Shown here one piece after another: positions 10,007 through 35,431 of a DNA stretch of 37,414 bases; the stretch's first letter is position 1, and each line of letters starts with the position of its first letter. Position numbers and translations under genes: made by a program. Source of the DNA: a virus. The stretch is from IMG/VR virus record IMGVR_UViG_3300033553_000563, positions 1 through 37,414 of that record; one strand, 5' to 3'. Below the pieces are notes generated by a model. It saw only the letters and a list, made by a program, of their open reading frames with translations. It was not told where the DNA came from and did not search any database.

Positions 10007-10663
10007 TTATTTATCTTCTGTCAATAATTTATAATCAAAATCACTATATGCCTTAATCTCATAAGCCTGTACATTTTCGCCTTTTGTAAATGGGAAACTA
10101 AAATCTTCAATCACTATTTTTTCTATTCCCAACAATTGTAAAGGCTCGCAATAAACTCTCAGTTCCTTTTTTGCGGTCATAAAGCTTTTAAGTTTTTCAA
10201 AGTCTTCCTTTGGATAACAATCGGAGACAGAACCGGTCAGGATAGAACCAATCAACACCCCTGTAATGGTAATTTCCCAATCGGCCTGGTTCCAACGTTC
10301 TTTTATGGATCCAACAAAAGTTGAATTAATTGACGTTTTTGCAACATTCCTTTTTACGATGTTGTTTTTCCCTGTAATTGAAATCATTGGTTCGTAAGGC
10401 AACATATATTTTATGCCATCATCACCAACAAAATAGAAAGGAAAAAACTGCGCTTCTGCAGACAATGGCAAATCGGCCATCCGTAGATTTTCTTCAACCC
10501 TTGCATTTACATTCGCAATTTCAACGGTGTTTTTTAAGGGCAAAAACGGAATAGGTGGCAATACGTGTTTCATCAGTTCATTTTGAACTACCGTAAAGCG
10601 TGGTATGGATATTTTGGATCCAACCAGTGAAGCGAATAATATGTCGGTGTTATCGTATGCCAT
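10007..10663 (-). CDS. DUF6046-family tail protein
   Basis: 218 aa. The C-terminal half (WEITITGVLIG..., then the YCEPLQLLGIEKIVIEDFSF stretch and a PFTKGENVQAYEIKAYSD run) matches the pattern I recall for DUF6046 proteins of Bacteroidota phages. It lies between tape measure and hub, the Mu gp43 (N) position, so it probably belongs to the tail tip or baseplate hub and joins the tape measure to the hub. The start abuts the tape-measure stop at 10663. Confidence 0.65.
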   Translation of the reverse strand: MAYDNTDILFASLVGSKISIPRFTVVQNELMKHVLPPIPFLPLKNTVEIANVNARVEENLRMADLPLSAEAQFFPFYFVGDDGIKYMLPYEPMISITGKNNIVKRNVAKTSINSTFVGSIKERWNQADWEITITGVLIGSILTGSVSDCYPKEDFEKLKSFMTAKKELRVYCEPLQLLGIEKIVIEDFSFPFTKGENVQAYEIKAYSDFDYKLLTEDK

Positions 10664-12678
10664 TAATTTCCTGCGGTTGTAGCCATCGCCAAAGTGCGTA
10701 ACAAGGCATCTGTTGCCTGATCTTGCATTTGTTTAGAGCTGTCTTTAAAATCATTTGCCTTAATATTCAATACGCCAATTAATTCCTTTAAATTAATGGT
10801 GACGTATGTATGTTTTGTGCCACCGGTTGCAATGGCATTATTTGTTTTGGTTCCTGCGCCGCCTCCTGCTCCTTCAGTTCCTCCGCCTCCGGTTCCCACT
10901 CCTGGAATGCCAGGCGTTTTAATTCCTTCACCCGAAAGTTTTACTTCAGCATCTGTTTTCCAACTTAAAGAACCTCCTGCTTTTGCAAAGGCTTCTTTGG
11001 CTTTTAAAGCAGTATCACCCACTTTTTTAGCCTGGTCAACAATGGCCTTTTTACGCGCTTCAGTTTGCGCATCTATTTTGGCGATCATTGCTTGGTTCTC
11101 CGAGCTGTCACCAATGCCAACCGCTTCTTTAAATTCGTAGTACCCTTTTTTGATTTTGTCCAGGGCAATTAACAATACGTTTACCACTGTGGTAAACTCT
11201 AACTTTATGGTTTCGCCAAATAACTGAAACAGCAGTTTACCGCCTTCAACCGTATATTTCCAAGCTTGGCCCCAGCCTTCTGTTTTGGATATGACCCAAA
11301 CAATGGCCGCGCCCAATGCAATGATTACTGCAGGGATTAAAAAGATGGGAGACATTGCCACGTTTAACGCCCATTGTATGCCTGTCCAAACTGCCGTGGC
11401 TCCGGAAACAATGTTTGTCCATAAAACTTGCAATTTTGTGGCGCTGGTTACAAAGCCAATCACTTTTCCAAAACCGCCAAACAATGGTAATAAGTTTGAA
11501 ATGTCAAAGGCCATACCGCCCAAAACGGATGCGTAACCCATAACGCCATTAGTAGCATTGAAAAGGGTAATTTTAAAATCTTCTAGCCGCGCTTTTAAAC
11601 GTGCGTTTCTTTCTGCAGGTGCTTCCATTACAATAGCCGCCTGTTCGTAAGCGGTATTAGTTCCTACAATGGCCTTTGCCAAACGCTCTTGTTCATCTAT
11701 GCCTGCAACCAAGGCAATGGCCGCATTGTTGTTTTCTTTTCCAAATAGTTTTGTTACCAAGGCGCTGTCGTGCATAATGGCGCGCAATGGTTTCAACCTG
11801 TCGGTTAACGACAAACTTTTATCGCCTAAAACATTAATATTAACACCTGCAGCTTGCAATTCTTGAAGCACGTCTTTTGGTAAAAAACGGCCTTGTGATA
11901 AGGTTGCCAAGGTATTTCTTAAAGCCACACCGCCTTCAGCTCCTTTCTTTCCGGCTTTGTCTAAAACCTGAATTGCAGCGGCGTGTTGTTCAAATTCTAT
12001 CTTGGCTGCTTTTGCTGCCATACCGCTTTGCTCTAATGCCGCTTTTTGTTGTGGCAATTCCGCCGATCCTTCTTTTGCTGCCGCTGCCATAATGTTCATC
12101 ATTCGCGCCATTTCTGCGGATGCTTTTATGGGATCAGCTGTAGATACTTGGTATTGATTCATAGCTGTAGTCAACACTTCTGTTGCCGCCGCCGTATCGC
12201 CACCCATTGTTTTGGAAAGTATGTTTACATCTTTGCCCATTGCCTGCAAAGCTTTTGGAGCTTTGGCTAGTTCCGGCGTTAATTGTGATAAAATAAGTTT
12301 GTAGCTTTCAACTCCTGCAGCTGCGTCACCGCCAAAAGTTTTGGCACTTTGGCGCGCATAGCCTTCAATTTCTTTTAGCTTTTCTCCGGTAACGTCTGTA
12401 ATTGCCGATAAGTCGGCCAATGAAGAACTTAGTTTTAGTCCTGGCGCATTTAAGGAATCCAATCCTGTCGCAACAGATTGTACGTTTTGGATAAAAGAAG
12501 AAAGTCTTATGGTTGAAAGTTTGGAATTAATTTTGTCCATTGCTTTGGAAAAATTATTACCAAGTGTGCCAACGTGTGTGTTGACTTTGTTTACGCCCTC
12601 GTCAAGTTTATTGATGCCGGCAGTAACTTTGTCGGCATTTGACGTGAATTTCAGTATGTAATTTAGCGTTGAATCCAT
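10663..12678 (-). CDS. Tail tape measure protein (TP901 core)
   Basis: 671 aa. An N-terminal helical region (KFTSNADKVTAGINKLDEGV) is followed by the TP901 core: SAKTFGGDAAAGVESYKLIL, ILSKTMGGDTAAATEVLTTA and NQYQVSTADPIKASAEMARM. Hydrophobic segments follow near the middle (GGFGKVIGFVTSA; SPIFLIPAVIIALGAAIVWV) and a Gly-rich linker (GVGTGGGGTEGAGGGAG) precedes the C-terminal helix. It sets tail length and may assist DNA passage through the membrane. It comes directly after the frameshifting chaperone gene pair, the standard order. The length suggests a moderately short tail. Confidence 0.85.
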   Translation of the reverse strand: MDSTLNYILKFTSNADKVTAGINKLDEGVNKVNTHVGTLGNNFSKAMDKINSKLSTIRLSSFIQNVQSVATGLDSLNAPGLKLSSSLADLSAITDVTGEKLKEIEGYARQSAKTFGGDAAAGVESYKLILSQLTPELAKAPKALQAMGKDVNILSKTMGGDTAAATEVLTTAMNQYQVSTADPIKASAEMARMMNIMAAAAKEGSAELPQQKAALEQSGMAAKAAKIEFEQHAAAIQVLDKAGKKGAEGGVALRNTLATLSQGRFLPKDVLQELQAAGVNINVLGDKSLSLTDRLKPLRAIMHDSALVTKLFGKENNNAAIALVAGIDEQERLAKAIVGTNTAYEQAAIVMEAPAERNARLKARLEDFKITLFNATNGVMGYASVLGGMAFDISNLLPLFGGFGKVIGFVTSATKLQVLWTNIVSGATAVWTGIQWALNVAMSPIFLIPAVIIALGAAIVWVISKTEGWGQAWKYTVEGGKLLFQLFGETIKLEFTTVVNVLLIALDKIKKGYYEFKEAVGIGDSSENQAMIAKIDAQTEARKKAIVDQAKKVGDTALKAKEAFAKAGGSLSWKTDAEVKLSGEGIKTPGIPGVGTGGGGTEGAGGGAGTKTNNAIATGGTKHTYVTINLKELIGVLNIKANDFKDSSKQMQDQATDALLRTLAMATTAGN

Positions 12679-12721
12679 CTGAGGGTGTTAGTTGTTTTGG
12701 TTTGATAAAGCGAAAAAGGAA

Positions 12722-12901
12722 TTACCCTTTTTCGCTATTTCTTATGTATTCTAATTCTTTGTAGCGGAGAACCCAATCTTCATCACTTAGGCTGTCAGGA
12801 TCGGGTATGTGGAAATAGTAACGCATTTGTGCGTTTGCAATCCGCATCCAATCTGTAGGTTCAACTGCTGCAACCTCTAAAGCTTTTCCAAAGTAGTCTC
12901 T
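12722..12901 (-). CDS. Frameshift extension of the tail assembly chaperone (GT-like part)
   Basis: This 59-aa frame has no start codon at its upstream edge but continues the 0-frame chaperone after a -1 slip at T TTA AAA (12907 to 12901). After the shift it reads RDYFGKALEVAAVEPTDWMR, then IANAQMRYYFHIPDPD and DWVLRYKELEYIRNSEKG, ending TAA at 12722-12724, 43 nt before the tape-measure gene. The fused product would be about 150 aa. Tail chaperone pairs made by -1 frameshift just before the tape measure are known from lambda G/GT and Mu; the function here, holding the tape measure during tube assembly, follows from that. Confidence 0.82.
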   Translation of the reverse strand, partial: RDYFGKALEVAAVEPTDWMRIANAQMRYYFHIPDPDSLSDEDWVLRYKELEYIRNSEKG

Positions 12902-13173
12902 TTTAAATCTATGATTTTAGCCAGATCTCCGGATACACTCATAAACAAAGAGTCGTTTGTTTGGATCTCTTCATCGCCATCAAGCCAGCACGTTTTCAAC
13001 AAATATTCATTGAATTTCATTGCATCATTTTTGCCAACTTGTGCGGCATAACTCATTTCTTTACGATTCGGACTTCTTAAAAAAGCCGTTTTATCTTCAA
13101 CTGAAATTTTAAAAACACTTTCGTGTTGCTTTTTCCAAGCTTCAATTTGTTCCGGGGTGATTTCTTTACTCAT
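12877..13173 (-). CDS. Tail assembly chaperone (G-like, Mu gp41 position)
   Basis: 98 aa. Charged helical start (EQIEAWKKQHESVFKISVED) and the DEEIQTNDSLFMSVSGDLAK stretch fit the tail-chaperone family found between tube and tape measure. The 0-frame product ends KETTLEKL, stop at 12877. Before that stop lies a slippery T TTA AAA heptamer. The start abuts the tube stop at 13173. The short product should be the abundant form and the frameshifted one the minor form. Confidence 0.78.
   Translation of the reverse strand: MSKEITPEQIEAWKKQHESVFKISVEDKTAFLRSPNRKEMSYAAQVGKNDAMKFNEYLLKTCWLDGDEEIQTNDSLFMSVSGDLAKIIDLKETTLEKL
12901..12907 (-). other. Programmed -1 frameshift slippery site T TTA AAA (tail chaperone)
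   Basis: In the 0 frame the codons are GAT TTA AAA GAG, giving a canonical X XXY YYZ heptamer. The -1 frame stays open for 59 codons with credible protein; the 0 frame stops eight codons later. Confidence 0.85.
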
Positions 13174-13587: not shown

Positions 13588-14814
13588 TTAGTTGTTTAGC
13601 GTTACGTCATAGCCCAATAAGATGTCGAACCAACGTGCATAGCCTCTTGGTCTAACTTTTAGGCTTAATTCTATTCTATTGGTGGTAGATACGTCCATTG
13701 TGGTATTGAAAGTAGCTTTCACCCCTAAGTCGTCTTTATCTGTTGAACTTGCGCTCAACTCACCTTTAGCGGTCATTTGTTGAGAGATTTCTCTTTCAAT
13801 ATTTCCTTCCACAGTTTTCGCAAAAAATGGAGAGATCGTACCGTCATTGTTCAAATCAAAATCGGCTAAAATTTCATTGCTGGCAATGTTGTGTGCCAAA
13901 CGGAAAGCTTTGTCAATTACACGTCTGCGTGAGATGTAATGATAATCGTCTATCATTGCAGTCGCTAAAGGATCATCAGAAATGTAATAGCCTGCTTTGC
14001 GAACGTGTGTTCTAAAAGTCACAAAACCTTTGTCGTGCAAAGCAGCAACGTCATAACTTTCAACCGGTGTATCTAAAATAAAAGCGGTCAATGTTGCCAA
14101 AGCGCCTGCTTTTACCTTTCCGGCATTTTCGTGAACTTGGCTTTTTGCCAAACGGCCAGCCAACACAGCAACGGCAGAACCAATACTGGCAGTTACGCCT
14201 GTTCTGGTTTCGGTATCACCCACAAACACAGCAACGCGATTGTTGGCTTCCAACAATAAGTCCGGCAAGTCATTGGCAACGCCTGTAAAACCGTAAGCTT
14301 CTAACATTACAAATACCGGAGCAAAATTTGCTGCAGTATAATTCACCGCCAATAATTGCGCTTTTTGTTTTGCCAAAATCACATCGGCATCCATTGCAGT
14401 TTCAACAGTCAATACATAAGCACCATTAGGTGAAAATGCAGTGAACAAAGCGGTAATTTCACCGTTTGAAGCATCAAGCATTGTTTCAACAGGCGCTATG
14501 CCTGTAACAACATCTGCAGTAAACCAATCACTTACTTTTGTTGTTTTTGCAAAACCCATGATCCAAAGTTTTGTGCCCTCGCCTGCTTCTTCAAAAAACT
14601 CTTTTAAGGCTTTGTAAAGACGGTAATTGTCAACGTCTGGTAAAATACCCAACGCAGCCACATCTGCCATACCTTTTACGGTATAAGGCGTACCTAGCGC
14701 GAATTTGCCTGCAACTGCAACTGCAGAAGCAAGAAGTCCGAAAACACCATCGGCTGTAGCAACTACAGTTCCAATGTTTCCGTTGTCAAATTTTATGTCT
14801 ATTCCTGGTAACAT
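13588..14814 (-). CDS. Tail sheath protein (DUF2586 type)
   Basis: 408 aa. MLPGIDIKFDNGNIGTVVAT followed by a GVFGLLASAV stretch and GKFALGTPYTVKGMADVAAL is the N-terminal pattern of DUF2586 sheath proteins of Bacteroidota phages. The C-terminus (EIS-Q-MTAKGELSASSTD, then VRPRGYARWFDILLGYDVTL) resembles the sheath C-terminal handshake domain. It polymerises around the tube and contracts during infection. It lies between the small Ala-rich protein and the tube gene. Confidence 0.8.
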   Translation of the reverse strand: MLPGIDIKFDNGNIGTVVATADGVFGLLASAVAVAGKFALGTPYTVKGMADVAALGILPDVDNYRLYKALKEFFEEAGEGTKLWIMGFAKTTKVSDWFTADVVTGIAPVETMLDASNGEITALFTAFSPNGAYVLTVETAMDADVILAKQKAQLLAVNYTAANFAPVFVMLEAYGFTGVANDLPDLLLEANNRVAVFVGDTETRTGVTASIGSAVAVLAGRLAKSQVHENAGKVKAGALATLTAFILDTPVESYDVAALHDKGFVTFRTHVRKAGYYISDDPLATAMIDDYHYISRRRVIDKAFRLAHNIASNEILADFDLNNDGTISPFFAKTVEGNIEREISQQMTAKGELSASSTDKDDLGVKATFNTTMDVSTTNRIELSLKVRPRGYARWFDILLGYDVTLNN

Positions 14815-21177: not shown

Positions 21178-22419
21178 ATGACACGTAAAACAAAAAGATA
21201 CACCAGGGCGCAATCGCAAACTTTTGCGGCTGCAGGAACCAGTAAAACAAATGCAGTATTGCCAAAATATTCAGCTTCAATAGCGCCTAAAGCAGTGGCA
21301 CGAATTCGCCAAGACATTGCCAGCTGGAATACCGCTTTAAAAATGACAAAGATACTAGACAATCCTAAGTGGTTTTTGTTACAGCAATTGTATGATGAAG
21401 TGGCGTTGGACGCGTTGTTTACGTCGCAATATAAAAACAGGCAATTAAAAGCGTTGTCAGAAACCATTGTTTTGAAAAAGCCTAATGGTGAAGTTGATGA
21501 AGATCAGTCCAAAATGCTTAACAACGCCATTTTTACCAATGAAATAAATAGGCATATTCTTGAAAGCCGTTACAAAATTCATTCTTTGATTGAATTGTCT
21601 TTTAACGCTGAAAAAATACTTCAGGTAGATTTGATTCCTCGTGAAAATATAGATCCTGTTGGCGGCTTTTTATATCCGGACTATTCTGAAGACAAAAAGA
21701 TACCTTACAGGGAAGCTTCGGAATATGGAATTTGGCTGCTGGAGTTTGGCGAAAAAGGAGACTTAGGCTTAATAAACAATGCCGTACCGCACGTACTGTT
21801 TAAACGCTTTGCGCAAAGTTGCTGGAGCGAGTTGTGCGAAATTTACGGAATTCCGCCTCGGGTGATGAAAACAAACACGCAGGATCCTGTCGCTTTAAAA
21901 AGAGCTGAAACAATGATGCGCGATATGGGTGCGGCCGCTTGGTTTATTATCGATGAAAGCGAAAAGTTCGAGTGGGCTTCTGCAGCAACCACCAACGGCG
22001 ATGTTTACAAAAATTTAATAACGCTTTGCAATAATGAAATATCATTGTTGATCACCGGAGCGGTAATTGGCCAGGACACAAAAAACGGCAGCCGATCTAA
22101 AGACGAGAGCGGACAAGAAATGTTGCAAACTTTAATTGACAGCGATTTGCGTTTGTTGGAGCAACATTGGAATTCAACCGTTATTCCAGCCTTGGTAAAG
22201 TTGGGCGTGCTAAAAGGTGAATTGACTTACGGTTACGAACAAACTGAAGACTTAGCGCAATTGTGGACAATGACCAAAGAAGCTTTTCCGTTTTTTGATG
22301 TGAAGCCGGAGTGGGTTCAACAAAAGTTTGGAATTGAAGTGGCCGCTAAAAAAGTACCAACGCAACAAAACACGTTGAGCCTTATTGACGGAAAACTGCC
22401 TGAAGGTTTTTTCGACTAA
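21178..22419 (+). CDS. Portal protein (DUF935, Mu gp29-like)
   Basis: 413 aa in the 0 frame. DUF935 features: RIRQDIASWNTALKMTKILD, HSLIELSFNAEKILQVDLIP, WSELCEIYGIPPRVMKTNTQ and the region around GAVIGQDTKNGSRSKDESG. It forms the dodecameric DNA entry ring. The 0 frame ends LPEGFFD, stop at 22417-22419. The last codons contain T TTT TTC, and the -1 frame continues directly into the MuF domain, so some or all portal may carry a C-terminal MuF extension (fusion about 707 aa). Confidence 0.87.
   Translation: MTRKTKRYTRAQSQTFAAAGTSKTNAVLPKYSASIAPKAVARIRQDIASWNTALKMTKILDNPKWFLLQQLYDEVALDALFTSQYKNRQLKALSETIVLKKPNGEVDEDQSKMLNNAIFTNEINRHILESRYKIHSLIELSFNAEKILQVDLIPRENIDPVGGFLYPDYSEDKKIPYREASEYGIWLLEFGEKGDLGLINNAVPHVLFKRFAQSCWSELCEIYGIPPRVMKTNTQDPVALKRAETMMRDMGAAAWFIIDESEKFEWASAATTNGDVYKNLITLCNNEISLLITGAVIGQDTKNGSRSKDESGQEMLQTLIDSDLRLLEQHWNSTVIPALVKLGVLKGELTYGYEQTEDLAQLWTMTKEAFPFFDVKPEWVQQKFGIEVAAKKVPTQQNTLSLIDGKLPEGFFD
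22407..22413 (+). other. Slippery T TTT TTC heptamer joining portal and MuF frames
   Basis: The portal codons are GGT TTT TTC GAC TAA. The -1 frame is open only from 22404, after a TGA at 22401-22403, so the overlap before the portal stop is about 15 nt and contains this X XXY YYZ heptamer. After a slip, reading resumes CGA CTA AGC into the MuF frame. A one-base error in the T6 run would look the same. Confidence 0.6.
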
Positions 22420-23300
22420 GCCCTGAAGGTTACTTTGGGGCATTTCACAATAGATTAGAGTTTCTTTACGGCTGCAGCTGCAGTAATTGTAACGCGCAAA
22501 AAGAAACATTAAATCTTGCGCTGAAAGACAAGTTTAAACCGTTATTAACTGCTGTTGAAATTGCGTTTAAAAAATTGCACACAAAAGGAAGTTACAAGCC
22601 GAAAGATTTGGACACCGTGCCGGAATATAAAGCCATTATTTCCGAAACAAACAATATTTTAAGCAGTGTTTTTAAAGACAATGATTTGTCTGAAGGAATG
22701 CTGGAGAGTTTGGAAAACGATGTATTTCTGTTTTCATCCTTAAAAACACACGCACAATTGTTTGAGGCTTCTCGCCTATTGCTGACTGAAGACAAACAGA
22801 TAAAATCGTATGCCGTTTTTGAAAATGATGTAAAAAGCATCAAAAGCAATTACAACGAGAACTATTTGGAAGCCGAATATCAATTCGCGGTGGGAACCGT
22901 CCAAATGGCAGAACGTTGGGAAGGGTTTTCTGATTCTAAAAGATACAATTTAACCTATCGTACTGCAGGCGACAGCCAAGTAAGGCCTGAACACGTAGTT
23001 TTAAATGGCATTACCCTGCCAAAAAGCGATGTGTTTTGGGTTTACTACTATGCGCCAAACGGCTGGCGTTGTAGGTGTACCGTTGTGGAAACATTGGCAA
23101 GCGACGGTGAAGTAAGTGATTCGGCAACATCTATTGCCCTGGGCGAAAAAGCCACCACCAAATTGGATAAGGACGGCAATAATAAATTGGCAATTTTCCG
23201 CTTTAACCCGGCAAAGGAAAAAGTGGTGTTTCCACCTAAGCATCCGTACCACAAAGTTCAGGGAGCAGCACAGGTTAAAAAGCAAGTAAATGCTAAATAG
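22413..23300 (+). CDS. MuF-like head morphogenesis protein, apparently expressed by -1 frameshift from the portal
   Basis: 295 codons from the shift site. It reads RLSPEGYFGAFHNRLEFLYG, then a Cys cluster CSCSNCN, a helical region, and the MuF/SPP1-gp7 core near the C-terminus (YNLTYRTAGDSQVRPEHVVL; VFWVYYYAPNGWRCRCTV). There is no ATG, GTG or TTG between the frame opening at 22404 and a TTG at 22575, and the first ATG is well inside the domain. Normal initiation would therefore lose conserved sequence. MuF proteins act as minor head proteins near the portal. Frameshift, an indel, or a non-standard start are the options. Confidence 0.75.
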   Translation, partial: RLSPEGYFGAFHNRLEFLYGCSCSNCNAQKETLNLALKDKFKPLLTAVEIAFKKLHTKGSYKPKDLDTVPEYKAIISETNNILSSVFKDNDLSEGMLESLENDVFLFSSLKTHAQLFEASRLLLTEDKQIKSYAVFENDVKSIKSNYNENYLEAEYQFAVGTVQMAERWEGFSDSKRYNLTYRTAGDSQVRPEHVVLNGITLPKSDVFWVYYYAPNGWRCRCTVVETLASDGEVSDSATSIALGEKATTKLDKDGNNKLAIFRFNPAKEKVVFPPKHPYHKVQGAAQVKKQVNAK

Positions 23301-31750: not shown

Positions 31751-32395
31751 TTAGTTTTGATTTGCTCCGTTTAATTTTTCGTAACCTTCTTGCCATATCA
31801 CATATTCGCCGCCGTTTGGCCCTATGGTTCGCCCTTTACAAATGGCGAGGTAACCGGATACGTATATTTTCATTTTGGCATTGTACATCACCGATTTTTC
31901 AAAGTCGGTTCTCGGGTTCTTACCTTCTGCGTGACCGCTGAATATGATTGTTTTTTTGGTTGCCCATTTCTTTTTAAAAGCCAAATAATCTTCCCATTTG
32001 GTCATAAAGTGAGGCAGCGAGTCAACAAACACTATGTCCGGACTATTGCGTTTGGATAGGTAAATATCCAATTGGCTGAGGCTATAACTTACTGTCAAAA
32101 AATTTAAGCTCACTTCATTCATTTGGCACAATTCGGTTCGTTCTATATAATCGCTGTCGTCAGGTTCCTCCTCCAGCAGGTTGTAAGCCACTTGTCTGGA
32201 TCTCGCAAACTCTTTTGCCAGCATCATTAAAAAAGTACTTTTACCGCTTCCGCTTCCGCCCCACACAAACCATATACCTCTATTTTGTGGCTGGCGAAAT
32301 GCCTGAAACCATTCACCCTCAAACGGTATTCTTTCAATGTTTTGGTTTTGGATATTAGCAACCGTTAAAGCTTTTTTTAACTTAATATCTTGCAT
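31751..32395 (-). CDS. RecA-like P-loop ATPase next to MuB
   Basis: 214 aa. Walker A GGSGSGKS (about residues 46-53) and Walker B DIVFVDS (120-126), with a later TIIFSGHAEG segment and AICKGRTIGPNGG, resemble RecA/RadA- or DnaB-like phage ATPases (AAA_24-like). It overlaps the MuB-like gene by 14 nt. Mu itself has no such second ATPase. It could work in strand exchange, target remodelling or replication restart after transposition; this is inference. Confidence 0.75.
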   Translation of the reverse strand: MQDIKLKKALTVANIQNQNIERIPFEGEWFQAFRQPQNRGIWFVWGGSGSGKSTFLMMLAKEFARSRQVAYNLLEEEPDDSDYIERTELCQMNEVSLNFLTVSYSLSQLDIYLSKRNSPDIVFVDSLPHFMTKWEDYLAFKKKWATKKTIIFSGHAEGKNPRTDFEKSVMYNAKMKIYVSGYLAICKGRTIGPNGGEYVIWQEGYEKLNGANQN

Positions 32396-33344
32396 TGAAA
32401 TTCATTGGAAGATTCAACACTTTTCTGATCAACTGTTCTGTAATTTCTTCCCCTGTTTTATCGGCTTCCCTGCGCACCGGAACCAACACATCATGCAGTT
32501 CGCCGTAATTGTCGCAAATGGTGCGCAGGAACTTTTTAACGTCGTTGGATTCGATGTCGGTTAAAAACAAATCAAAAGACTTGTCTATGTGAGGCAGTTG
32601 GCGAATTCCAAATTTAATGCGGCGATAAAACTGCGGAATCCCTTGTTTGTTCTTTTTTCGCATTATATCCAAGTTGGTCAACAATTGATCTGTGCCCACC
32701 AATACAATGCTGCAGTACTCATTTAAATAGTCGTGCAATTCTTTCATTGAGCACAAAGCCGGTTGTTTCATATATTCGGACTCGTCAAATATCATTTGTG
32801 GTTTAATTCCGCTGTCTTTTAGGCTTCGCAATTTTTGAGCGATGTCCCTTAATTTTTTAGATTTTGATTTACCAGTTGTTAGTTTAAGTTCATCGATAAT
32901 TTTATCAATTAAATCAGATAAATTGTCGGAGCTTCCAACGGTAACTATAAAGGTTCCGCTTGGATTTTTACGGCGAAATAAGTTAATGACATGAGATTTA
33001 CCGGATCCGGTTGCGCCAACAATAACATTTGTGGTACCGTGTTCTTTAGACTCCTGAAGGTTGGCAATTATTTGACCGAATTGAGGGGTTATTTGGTTGT
33101 CCCAATATGATTTTACATAAGAGTAGCCAATGAAGCTCGCAATTTTATCGAAGTATTTGTCGGCAATTACCACTGTTTTGTCTTTACCTACAGACACAGT
33201 GAAATCACTGTTGTACTGAAACATTTGCGACACGTACTCTTTTCTCACATCGGCTTTTACAGCCAAATCAGTTTGTGTAATGTTGTTTTCTTTGATGTAG
33301 ATTTTAGCCTCAAGGACTATTTGTTTTTTAATGCTTAATTCCAT
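32382..33344 (-). CDS. MuB-like transposition ATPase
   Basis: 320 aa. An N-terminal HTH (ITQTDLAVKADVRKEYVSQM), then an AAA+ domain with Walker A GATGSGKS (110-117) and Walker B QMIFDESE (183-190), followed by VGTDQLLTNLDIM. MuB forms ATP-dependent filaments on target DNA, selects targets and activates the transposase; all needed motifs are present. It starts 2 nt after the transposase stop, the Mu A-B order. Confidence 0.87.
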   Translation of the reverse strand: MELSIKKQIVLEAKIYIKENNITQTDLAVKADVRKEYVSQMFQYNSDFTVSVGKDKTVVIADKYFDKIASFIGYSYVKSYWDNQITPQFGQIIANLQESKEHGTTNVIVGATGSGKSHVINLFRRKNPSGTFIVTVGSSDNLSDLIDKIIDELKLTTGKSKSKKLRDIAQKLRSLKDSGIKPQMIFDESEYMKQPALCSMKELHDYLNEYCSIVLVGTDQLLTNLDIMRKKNKQGIPQFYRRIKFGIRQLPHIDKSFDLFLTDIESNDVKKFLRTICDNYGELHDVLVPVRREADKTGEEITEQLIRKVLNLPMNFNARY

Positions 33345-33346
33345 AA

Positions 33347-35431
33347 TTATAAATAATCTTCTGCGTTAACTTGGTTTGCGTAATATTCCTTTTGTTCTTC
33401 GGCAAAGGTTTTTGCCACTTTTTTAATTTCTTTGGTTTCGGCACGTTCGGCAATTCTTGCGGTGCTTTTTGCAACAGCCAAACGTTCTTGTGATTTGTGA
33501 TTTTTGTGTTGGCCCATACTGTCTGTCAATAAATGTTTGGCCAGTGTATCGTTTAAGCGTGGCTCGTTCATTAAAGGATCAAGAAGCAGTGAGTTGTTTA
33601 TGCGTTCGTCAACAATCATTTGAAGTGCGCCTTTATTGAATTCCCTTACACGTTGCAATTGCTCAACATCGCCTTCTTGCCTGTCGGCCAACGCCATCGG
33701 TTGTACAAATTTGCGTTCCAATAAAAAGCGTTCAGATCCGTCGGCACTAATGGCAAGCGCGTGGCTTAAATTGTTGGTATCAAATTGAAGCTTCCAATCT
33801 AAATGCAGTTTGTGACGGAAGTTGATGTCGAAACTATCAAAGAAGTGTTGTTGACCATCAATAACGATCCTTAAACCTTCGCCTTTTAATTTATTGGTTT
33901 CACCTGTGCTGGATCCAAAGGTTAACAAGTAGTTTTCCAAGGTCATTATAGATTTGTGCTTCTCGCTGGTGTTTATCCAGTTGGTTCTAAACGCTTCCAC
34001 TTTTGCGGAACGTTCTGCAGCAACAATGCCTTCAATTTGGCTAATGCAACCTAATTTATCAGGGAAAGAGTGTTTAATTTTTTGTAAATATTCGGTGTTT
34101 GGTTGGTTTTTTGAGCCTGAAACAATGTTATGTCCGCTCCAGTTATCCATTAATTTGCAGTACTTTTTGTTGATGGTGTTAAAATAAGGCTCTATTATTT
34201 TGGCTTTTGCGTTTCCAATGGCTGCAGGCGTATAATGTGAAGTAATTGATTCGTATAATGGTTTTAAAGCGCCACGACCGTAATTATCACTTTGCAACTC
34301 ATAAGGTTTGTAGAAATCTCCAAACAGTTCTTTTACGTGTTGCATTGCATTTTGTAAGGCGCGTTTTATCAACTCCGGACTTTCATTGGTTCCTATTGAA
34401 TAGCCAATTGGGTATTTATTGAAAGGATCCACAACCAATACAATGGTTAGGCGGTTGTGATAGGTTGTTAAACGCTTCCCTTCTTTATTTACAGCAGTAT
34501 CCTGGTATAATAGTTCTACATCCCAACCATCCAAAGTCCAGTATAACATTGGCGCACTTGGCGGACGACGTTTTACTTGCATCAAAATGTTTGATTTCAA
34601 TGATTTTGTGCCTTGTCGACCTGCGTGTGTTACCAAGTTTGATTTTTGTTTGCGGTTCCAAACGGTTGCTGAAGTGATTGTTTTCCAGTTCATTTTTTCG
34701 GCAACGATGTTGTACAAAGTGCAGATCAGTTCGTTGTCTAAATTGGTGTGTTTTGCAAGAAGCTCGTCCAACAAAGCCATTTGTTCTTTTTCTGAAACCT
34801 TGCGTGCATTTGAGTTTTGTAGACGTCCTGAAATTATTGAGGAATACCCTTTTTTGGAATATTCTGTGGCTTTACGGCGTAAACCGTCTTTATTGGCAGG
34901 CAAGTTGTGAGCCACTTCCCTGAATGCATTTACATCATTACTTAAACTGGCCCAAATATCAATAGATGTATCTCCCAACGCTTTTGCGTATGCTTTGCGG
35001 TTGGTTTTAACTTCAAGAACCGCATTTAACACAGAAGCGTTGTAGGTGTATTGCTCAACCAGTTTTAAATCTAGTTTTTTCTCTAAAGTCTCACCATATC
35101 TGTGACCTACAAAGAAATTGAAAGCTTCGCGGTCAGCTATATAGTGCTGTGAGAACCAGCTGCTTTTAATTTCTTGTTTTGGCAAGCCAAATTTGGTAGT
35201 AAGGTTATCTTTGAAATCGCGTGAAAGTGAACTGAAAAGGATTAAGGCGTCCATATTTAATGAAGCCCTTCGTAATTGTTGTTCGCAGCAGGTTTGGCTA
35301 TCCATTCTCTTTTTTAAAGTGCGGTAAGGAATTAATGCCAAACTATCCTTATGATTTGCGTTTGAAATAAGGTATTTCACCTTAACCCCAAGTTTGTTGT
35401 CGTAAAATTCGTAAGGTGTTTCTTTTTGCAT
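33347..35431 (-). CDS. MuA-like DDE transposase
   Basis: 694 aa, close to MuA length (663). The N-terminal part carries DNA-binding domains; the rve-type catalytic core shows YWTLDGWD (D301), LQSDNYGRG (D382) and KIIEPYFN (E414), the DDE triad in order. A beta-barrel and a helical, basic C-terminal tail (AEQKEYYANQV) follow; in MuA the C-terminus contacts MuB and ClpX. It should bind the CCAAATGCACA sites at both ends and join phage DNA to target. It lies 38 nt after the Ner-position gene's stop. Confidence 0.9.
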   Translation of the reverse strand: MQKETPYEFYDNKLGVKVKYLISNANHKDSLALIPYRTLKKRMDSQTCCEQQLRRASLNMDALILFSSLSRDFKDNLTTKFGLPKQEIKSSWFSQHYIADREAFNFFVGHRYGETLEKKLDLKLVEQYTYNASVLNAVLEVKTNRKAYAKALGDTSIDIWASLSNDVNAFREVAHNLPANKDGLRRKATEYSKKGYSSIISGRLQNSNARKVSEKEQMALLDELLAKHTNLDNELICTLYNIVAEKMNWKTITSATVWNRKQKSNLVTHAGRQGTKSLKSNILMQVKRRPPSAPMLYWTLDGWDVELLYQDTAVNKEGKRLTTYHNRLTIVLVVDPFNKYPIGYSIGTNESPELIKRALQNAMQHVKELFGDFYKPYELQSDNYGRGALKPLYESITSHYTPAAIGNAKAKIIEPYFNTINKKYCKLMDNWSGHNIVSGSKNQPNTEYLQKIKHSFPDKLGCISQIEGIVAAERSAKVEAFRTNWINTSEKHKSIMTLENYLLTFGSSTGETNKLKGEGLRIVIDGQQHFFDSFDINFRHKLHLDWKLQFDTNNLSHALAISADGSERFLLERKFVQPMALADRQEGDVEQLQRVREFNKGALQMIVDERINNSLLLDPLMNEPRLNDTLAKHLLTDSMGQHKNHKSQERLAVAKSTARIAERAETKEIKKVAKTFAEEQKEYYANQVNAEDYL

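Follow-up and report, generated by a model that had tools for sequence, protein, structure and literature searches.

The portal gene of a Mu-like phage very probably ends in a programmed -1 ribosomal frameshift signal, by which a single message would give two forms of the portal protein; the slippage itself, its rate, the co-assembly of both forms in the portal ring and the resulting MuF dosage are inferred from the sequence. The fusion of portal to MuF by -1 frameshifting, as put forward in the original prediction, is strongly supported by a conserved slippery heptamer, reading frame, spacing and covarying hairpin across more than 100 divergent phages. The DNA analysed here (the window, a stretch of 37,414 nt from the IMG/VR virus record IMGVR_UViG_3300033553_000563) belongs to a Mu-like transposable phage with a contractile tail, including genes for a transposase (33347-35431), a transposition protein (32382-33344) and a tail sheath (13588-14814).

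Portal and MuF frames in the window

The portal gene (21178..22419, plus strand) has a 0-frame product of 413 aa and belongs to the Portal_Mu family, matching PF06074 across positions 1-336 of its 336-position profile (221.8 bits against a Pfam cut-off of 23.9, E = 1.9e-65) as well as phrog_113 (portal). Directly 3′ of it, an open frame on the same strand (22404..23300), which is -1 relative to the portal and shares 16 nt with it, carries the MuF minor head domain (PF04233, 40.2 bits against a cut-off of 29.6, E = 6.5e-10; phrog_220, minor head protein); both frames therefore pass the test for their family. Further, the PHROG family phrog_35074 (890 positions) is matched by the portal at 16-364 and by MuF at 497-674, in that order, so the fusion exists elsewhere as a protein, and it is a single ORF in 51 relatives. 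AlphaFold models of the portal and of MuF, each built on a thin alignment, had mean pLDDT values of 47.8 and 44.5 and were too poor for a fold search; a sequence search of the PDB returned weak matches of the portal to the solved portals 9khx and 8rka and no match for MuF.

The 3′ end of the portal ORF reads GGT TTT TTC GAC TAA. Within the overlap and in the 0 frame, where the original prediction had located it, is the heptamer T TTT TTC (22407..22413, plus strand, with six T at 22407-22412 and C at 22413), which meets the first criterion for a frameshift signal, namely an X XXY YYZ heptamer at such a position. After a -1 slip, TTT in the P site would re-pair with TTT, and TTC in the A site with TTT. 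In-frame TTTTTTC occurs once in the 10,346 codons of the window's ORFs, at the portal end only. A 6-nt spacer (22414..22419, plus strand), holding the portal stop codon TAA (22417-22419), is followed by a GC-rich, putative stimulatory hairpin, GCCCUGAAG-GUUA-CUUUGGGGC (22420..22441, plus strand), which starts exactly 6 nt after the heptamer and has 9 bp, a folding free energy of -14.5 kcal/mol and a z-score of -3.69. The original prediction had proposed folding the downstream sequence as a check, and this hairpin, which it did not contain, is the outcome; Rfam gave no match in the window at the gathering score.

At this site, the window's 0 frame halts at once and the -1 frame runs on for 295 codons (22413-23297, plus strand), the productive part of MuF that would be reached by slippage. 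A -1 slip would join 412 residues of the portal to these 295, creating a predicted portal-MuF fusion of 707 aa (21178..23300, plus strand) with the junction ..LPEGFF-RLSPEGYF.., in agreement with the junction and the 413- and 707-aa forms first proposed. The MuF frame contains no ATG, GTG or TTG from 22404 to 22575; the earliest such codon is TTG at 22575 (codon 58), which is preceded by the conserved residues F2, F3, R4, P7, Y10, F11, A13, R17, L18, Y22, C26 and C29. Conservation of this frame begins at the slip site itself. The expectation that no usable start codon precedes the conserved sequence was correct, and the third criterion, a conserved -1 coding region that has no start of its own, is met. 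A duplication of CCTGAAGGTT around the site (22399-22408 and 22422-22431), also pointed out in the original prediction, is present, but it is absent from the nearest relative (L010) and was dropped as a functional element; because its second copy overlaps the 5′ arm of the hairpin, the duplication looks incidental.

Conservation of the slip site and covariation of the hairpin

A census of 208 distinct portal-MuF pairs contains 150 in which MuF is in the -1 frame (layout A); 145 of the 150 have a canonical slippery heptamer, which is TTTTTTC in 109. The alignment of homologues, another check proposed at the outset, thus finds the T6-C and two-frame layout conserved. When 137 distinct -1 junctions were compared, 132 had an overlap containing an X XXY YYZ heptamer (100 TTTTTTC, 12 AAATTTT, 12 A-runs and a few others), and the portal stop codon is exactly one codon (3 nt) past the heptamer in 107 of these 132. 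The type of slip site varies (TTTTTTC, AAATTTT, AAAAAAG or GGGTTTT), with slip plus stop retained. In particular, all 12 close IMG/VR relatives (MuF identity 54-81%) retain TTTTTTCG, the stop codon and the -1 frame; slip site, stop and -1 frame are also present in gut phage contigs, Hankyphage and Bacteroidota genomes, and the -1 layout with its slip site is conserved down to approximately 22-30% portal identity. An ATG before the conserved C26 is absent in 128 of 146 sequences, and TTG or GTG codons, attributable to chance, precede C26 in 85 of the 146 MuF frames.

Five layout-A pairs have no X XXY YYZ site. Their junctions read C TTT TTC or C TTT TTA in L082, L090 and L130, and G GTT TTT in L153; in L179, an ATG overlaps the portal stop. 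Two contigs (L079 and L106) have T6C, stop and hairpin at the portal end and a MuF frame that opens farther downstream, a displacement that is taken as a second indel in those contigs and is unresolved. Prevalence was sampled by drawing 296 genomes evenly from one relative's phylum, and 37 of them had a Portal_Mu match. Where MuF lies beside the portal, most had the -1 layout and a slip site (for example, L206, L208, L210, L215 and L216); one genome (L218) combines a single ORF and a slip site, and members of a deep Mu-type group (e.g. L201) start MuF separately. A separate MuF gene with its own ATG, named in the original prediction as potential refutation, does exist in homologues, but it was seen only in distant relatives (FPSV-S1, L007, and Mu-type gp29 portals such as L201). 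An identity-based search with the L173 fusion as its query found no relatives.

The downstream structure is kept by compensatory change. A 6-bp stem starts exactly 6 nt downstream in 99 of 103 T6C junctions, with 25 distinct arm pairs that are fully paired (for example, GCCCCA/TGGGGC, GGGCTG/CAGCCC, GCCACG/CGTGGC and CCCCCG/CGGGGG). The mean stem score was 19.66 with a phage's own downstream sequence, compared to 13.00 (sd 0.32) with that of another phage. Across 20 distinct, gap-free sequences, the covariation score was 0.254, compared to 0.151 for shuffled sequences (0 of 500 as high), and slid partners scored at most 0.092. A fixed geometry (6-nt spacer and 22-nt hairpin) is found in 26 of 100 sequences, with a median of 0 for other geometries. 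The spacer measures 6 nt in 72 of 129 stems; in 51, whose stem is lengthened outward, it measures 4-5 nt. Between groups, the protein encoded under the stem differs completely, yet the pairing persists. The second criterion, an RNA structure 5-9 nt downstream that is maintained through compensatory changes, is thus met. As the loops are variable in length and often only 3-4 nt, the stimulator is inferred to be a simple hairpin, which is likely, and not a pseudoknot; the A-run class (e.g. L005, L174 and L186) has no clear hairpin.

The motif also leads back to the gene pair. A scan of the viral collection with TTTTTTCGNNTAAGCCCC (slip, stop and 5′ arm), which was blind to proteins, located the bare motif at at least 80 loci. 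Among the matches listed, 76 of 80 are the end of a Portal_Mu ORF, and 72 of those 76 are also in an identified MuF frame.

The signal can be followed in named phages. Elizabethkingia phage TCUEAP3 (L236, OK632026.1), which is an isolated phage and a good experimental model, has T TTT TTC, the spacer GGGGAC and an 8-bp hairpin (GCTCCTCA/TGAGGAGC); its annotated minor head protein begins approximately 90 codons too late. Hankyphage p00 (L006, BK010646.1) has T TTT TTC and a GCCCCG/CGGGGC hairpin around 2001-2049. Because both elements sit upstream of the annotated MuF ATG at 2043 and the portal 0 frame reaches its stop only approximately 14 codons later, slippage is possible in this phage, and so is separate initiation. 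In Winogradskyella phage Peternella_1 (L005), portal and MuF are in the -1 relation at an A-run site (A AAA AAA) without a clear hairpin, and its annotation places the MuF start downstream. The AAATTTT site of L034 (887-2100) is accompanied by a variant hairpin, GACCCGAAA/TTTCGGGTC, that holds the 0-frame stop in its loop, a geometry common to the L097-L109 group.

Reversed polarity in single-ORF relatives

Portal and MuF form one fused ORF in 51 of the 208 pairs (layout B), for example in Porphyromonas gingivalis phages, where it is annotated as an 853-aa 'portal'. In 49 of the 51, the boundary nonetheless has a slip site after which the -1 frame stops within 0-30 codons; a strong stem is present in 41. 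In the P. gingivalis-type phages, TTTTTTC is separated by 6 nt from a stem of the GCCCCG or GCCCCC type, and the -1 frame stops after 16-26 codons. In the L279-L296 family, AAATTTT (or GGGTTTT) is followed by AA, so that the -1 frame reads AAA TTT TAA and stops immediately; most members have a strong stem approximately 5 nt downstream. As a control, the 19,785 portal-body codons of the single-ORF genes contain in-frame TTTTTTC 0 times and AAATTTT once. Because -1 slippage in these phages meets an early stop, the portal-only form would be their frameshift product. This reversed polarity was not visible to the original prediction.

The two layouts require at least 9 changes on a tree of the 208 portals (FastTree; its deep branches are unsure). 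The layout-A phages L236 and L215 adjoin the P. gingivalis-type layout-B clade on this tree, which points, by inference, to an exchange of frames through an indel 3′ of the hairpin. In L032 and L035, the run is T7 and the 0 frame is fused; the hairpin is kept in L032, where it was examined. As judged from these comparisons, what looks conserved is the making of both products. It is likely, on the whole, that selection on Bacteroidota Mu-like phages favours production of the portal both alone and fused to MuF from a single message, and that they have switched repeatedly between slipping to extend and slipping to truncate while keeping the slip-plus-hairpin element; mixed portal rings, with a MuF dosage set by the ribosome, would then be general among them. 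Flips in polarity with the signal retained are a rare natural experiment, suggesting that the ratio of the two products is selected and not merely their fusion.

Alternative explanations, known systems and proposed mechanism

The two frames meet in a homopolymer, and a sequencing error or natural single-base indel in the T run could have broken, or could be about to permanently fuse, one gene; L032 and L035, read as one ORF with T7 at this position, fit such an event, and the original prediction had itself kept this possibility in reserve. However, the T6C -1 layout recurs in more than 100 distinct phages, drawn from independent metagenome assemblies and isolate genomes, with the downstream stop codon and covarying hairpin kept, and AAATTTT or A-run sites elsewhere have the same frame relation; a chance error or indel is excluded for the window, and the explanation is extremely improbable. 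Another possibility is that the frames are joined by RNA polymerase slipping on T6 instead of by the ribosome, as homopolymers such as T6 and the A-runs can cause. Six T are short for a polymerase, though, and a hairpin that is not yet transcribed cannot act on it; where the site is AAATTTT or GGGTTTT and the hairpin is the same, the ribosomal tandem-slip rule fits and a homopolymer rule does not, and most of these sites have a stop codon in the spacer, which leaves transcriptional slippage very unlikely. Practically no weight can be given to the T run and hairpin being a terminator of transcription, or else a protein or DNA site with no role in translation: a hairpin does stand beside a T run, but in the wrong order for a terminator (T6 before it on the coding strand, A6 after it on the complementary strand), and the site, which lies within a compact operon of head genes, keeps a fixed register to the portal frame and stop codon.

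MuF might instead be a separate protein, translated from a non-standard start codon or by re-initiation past the portal stop, which is close to the MuF frame. Mu-type portals in the census (L201) have separate MuF genes, MuF in the annotated Hankyphage record begins at an ATG that overlaps the portal end, and separate initiation is not excluded for the Hankyphage clade (L006 and L008), whose ATG is just downstream of the slip site. Against this, the window offers no start before 22575, 128 of 146 relatives have no conserved ATG and the conserved residues start at the slip site; moreover, the heptamer, the fixed spacing, the hairpin and the slip sites of single-ORF phages would all remain unexplained. 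Separate synthesis of MuF is considered highly doubtful, and programmed -1 frameshifting by the ribosome is the preferred explanation.

Such frameshifting is of a known kind. The tail assembly chaperone G/GT -1 frameshift of dsDNA phages was reportedly described by Xu, Hendrix and Duda in 2004; like it, the portal site is near the end of a structural-module gene, and a -1 slip would add a C-terminal domain to a fraction of the product. Unlike G/GT, the genes are portal and MuF, the added part is a domain of a virion head protein, a regular hairpin lies 6 nt downstream and versions of opposite polarity exist. The location test for G/GT, a gene pair before the tape measure, fails, since the site belongs to the portal gene; the tape measure gene (10663-12678) is on the opposite strand to the portal. 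In E. coli dnaX (tau/gamma), the short form arises from premature termination after -1 slippage. The single-ORF relatives are similar, with a 0 frame that encodes the long form, an early stop in the -1 frame, a slip site and a hairpin; the window has the opposite polarity, and a dnaX-type test fails there, whereas it is met in 49 of the 51 single-ORF relatives. Bacteroidota rarely use Shine-Dalgarno signals.

Capsid-protein frameshifting is known from T7 gene 10A/10B. It is also reported for the major head protein of Lactobacillus phage A2 (cited in PMC5009743). As in both systems, a head protein would be made in short and long forms by -1 slippage and mixed in one shell; unlike in either, the subject is the portal, and the addition is a separate known gene family (MuF), not a small extension. 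The SPP1 17.5/17.5* frameshift, which is of the tail chaperone G/GT kind, uses the same heptamer as the portal site, UUUUUUC (PMC6316719). Further, SPP1 gp7, a MuF homologue, binds the portal and enters the procapsid in few copies (PMC6316719, PMC5576092). Mu and SPP1 (gp6 and gp7) share the gene order and protein families seen here, and low-copy MuF goes to the portal; unlike their separate genes, low-copy MuF is here predicted to be a covalent extension of the portal created by recoding.

Under the proposed mechanism, most ribosomes would halt after 413 aa and release the portal, while some, at an inferred moderate rate, would slip one base back on the tRNA-Phe codons of T TTT TTC, bypass the stop and go on to translate the MuF domain (707 aa), giving a portal with MuF at its C-terminus. 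As the two forms share the portal body, both should co-assemble in the portal ring, and the slip frequency would then set the number of MuF domains at the portal inside the capsid, a proposal that agrees with the stoichiometry idea of the original prediction. Approximately 1-3 MuF copies per dodecamer would need approximately 10-25% fusion in the window's layout; the same fusion ratio in the reversed layout would need very efficient slippage, and the layouts may differ in dosage. The usual description of a portal ring is of twelve identical subunits, and, to our knowledge, there is no agreed account of how low-copy MuF proteins enter it in the correct number; a conserved recoding signal by which some portal subunits would gain MuF offers a direct and testable answer across a large phage group.

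This group includes Hankyphage of gut Bacteroides and phage TCUEAP3, and on this reading MuF genes in such phages are often mis-annotated, with a late start or a missing N-terminus. Bxa is a MuF toxin of Bacteroides prophages (PMC11699363); such toxins might, speculatively, travel as portal fusions. No description of portal-MuF recoding was found in the open full-text literature searched, which did not cover the frameshift gene-cluster surveys of Sharma 2011 and Antonov 2013, where an unnamed cluster is possible, and the accessible part of a broad frameshifting review does not mention the portal. As far as checked, the gene pair, the conservation in both polarities and the implied mixed portal are new.

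The window also has a probable G/GT-type -1 frameshift of its own (12705-13173, minus strand). A 98-aa ORF (12877-13173, minus strand) contains T TTA AAA at 12907-12901 and is overlapped by a -1 frame (..FGKALEVAAVEPTDWMRIANAQMRYYF..) whose end lies immediately ahead of the tape measure gene.
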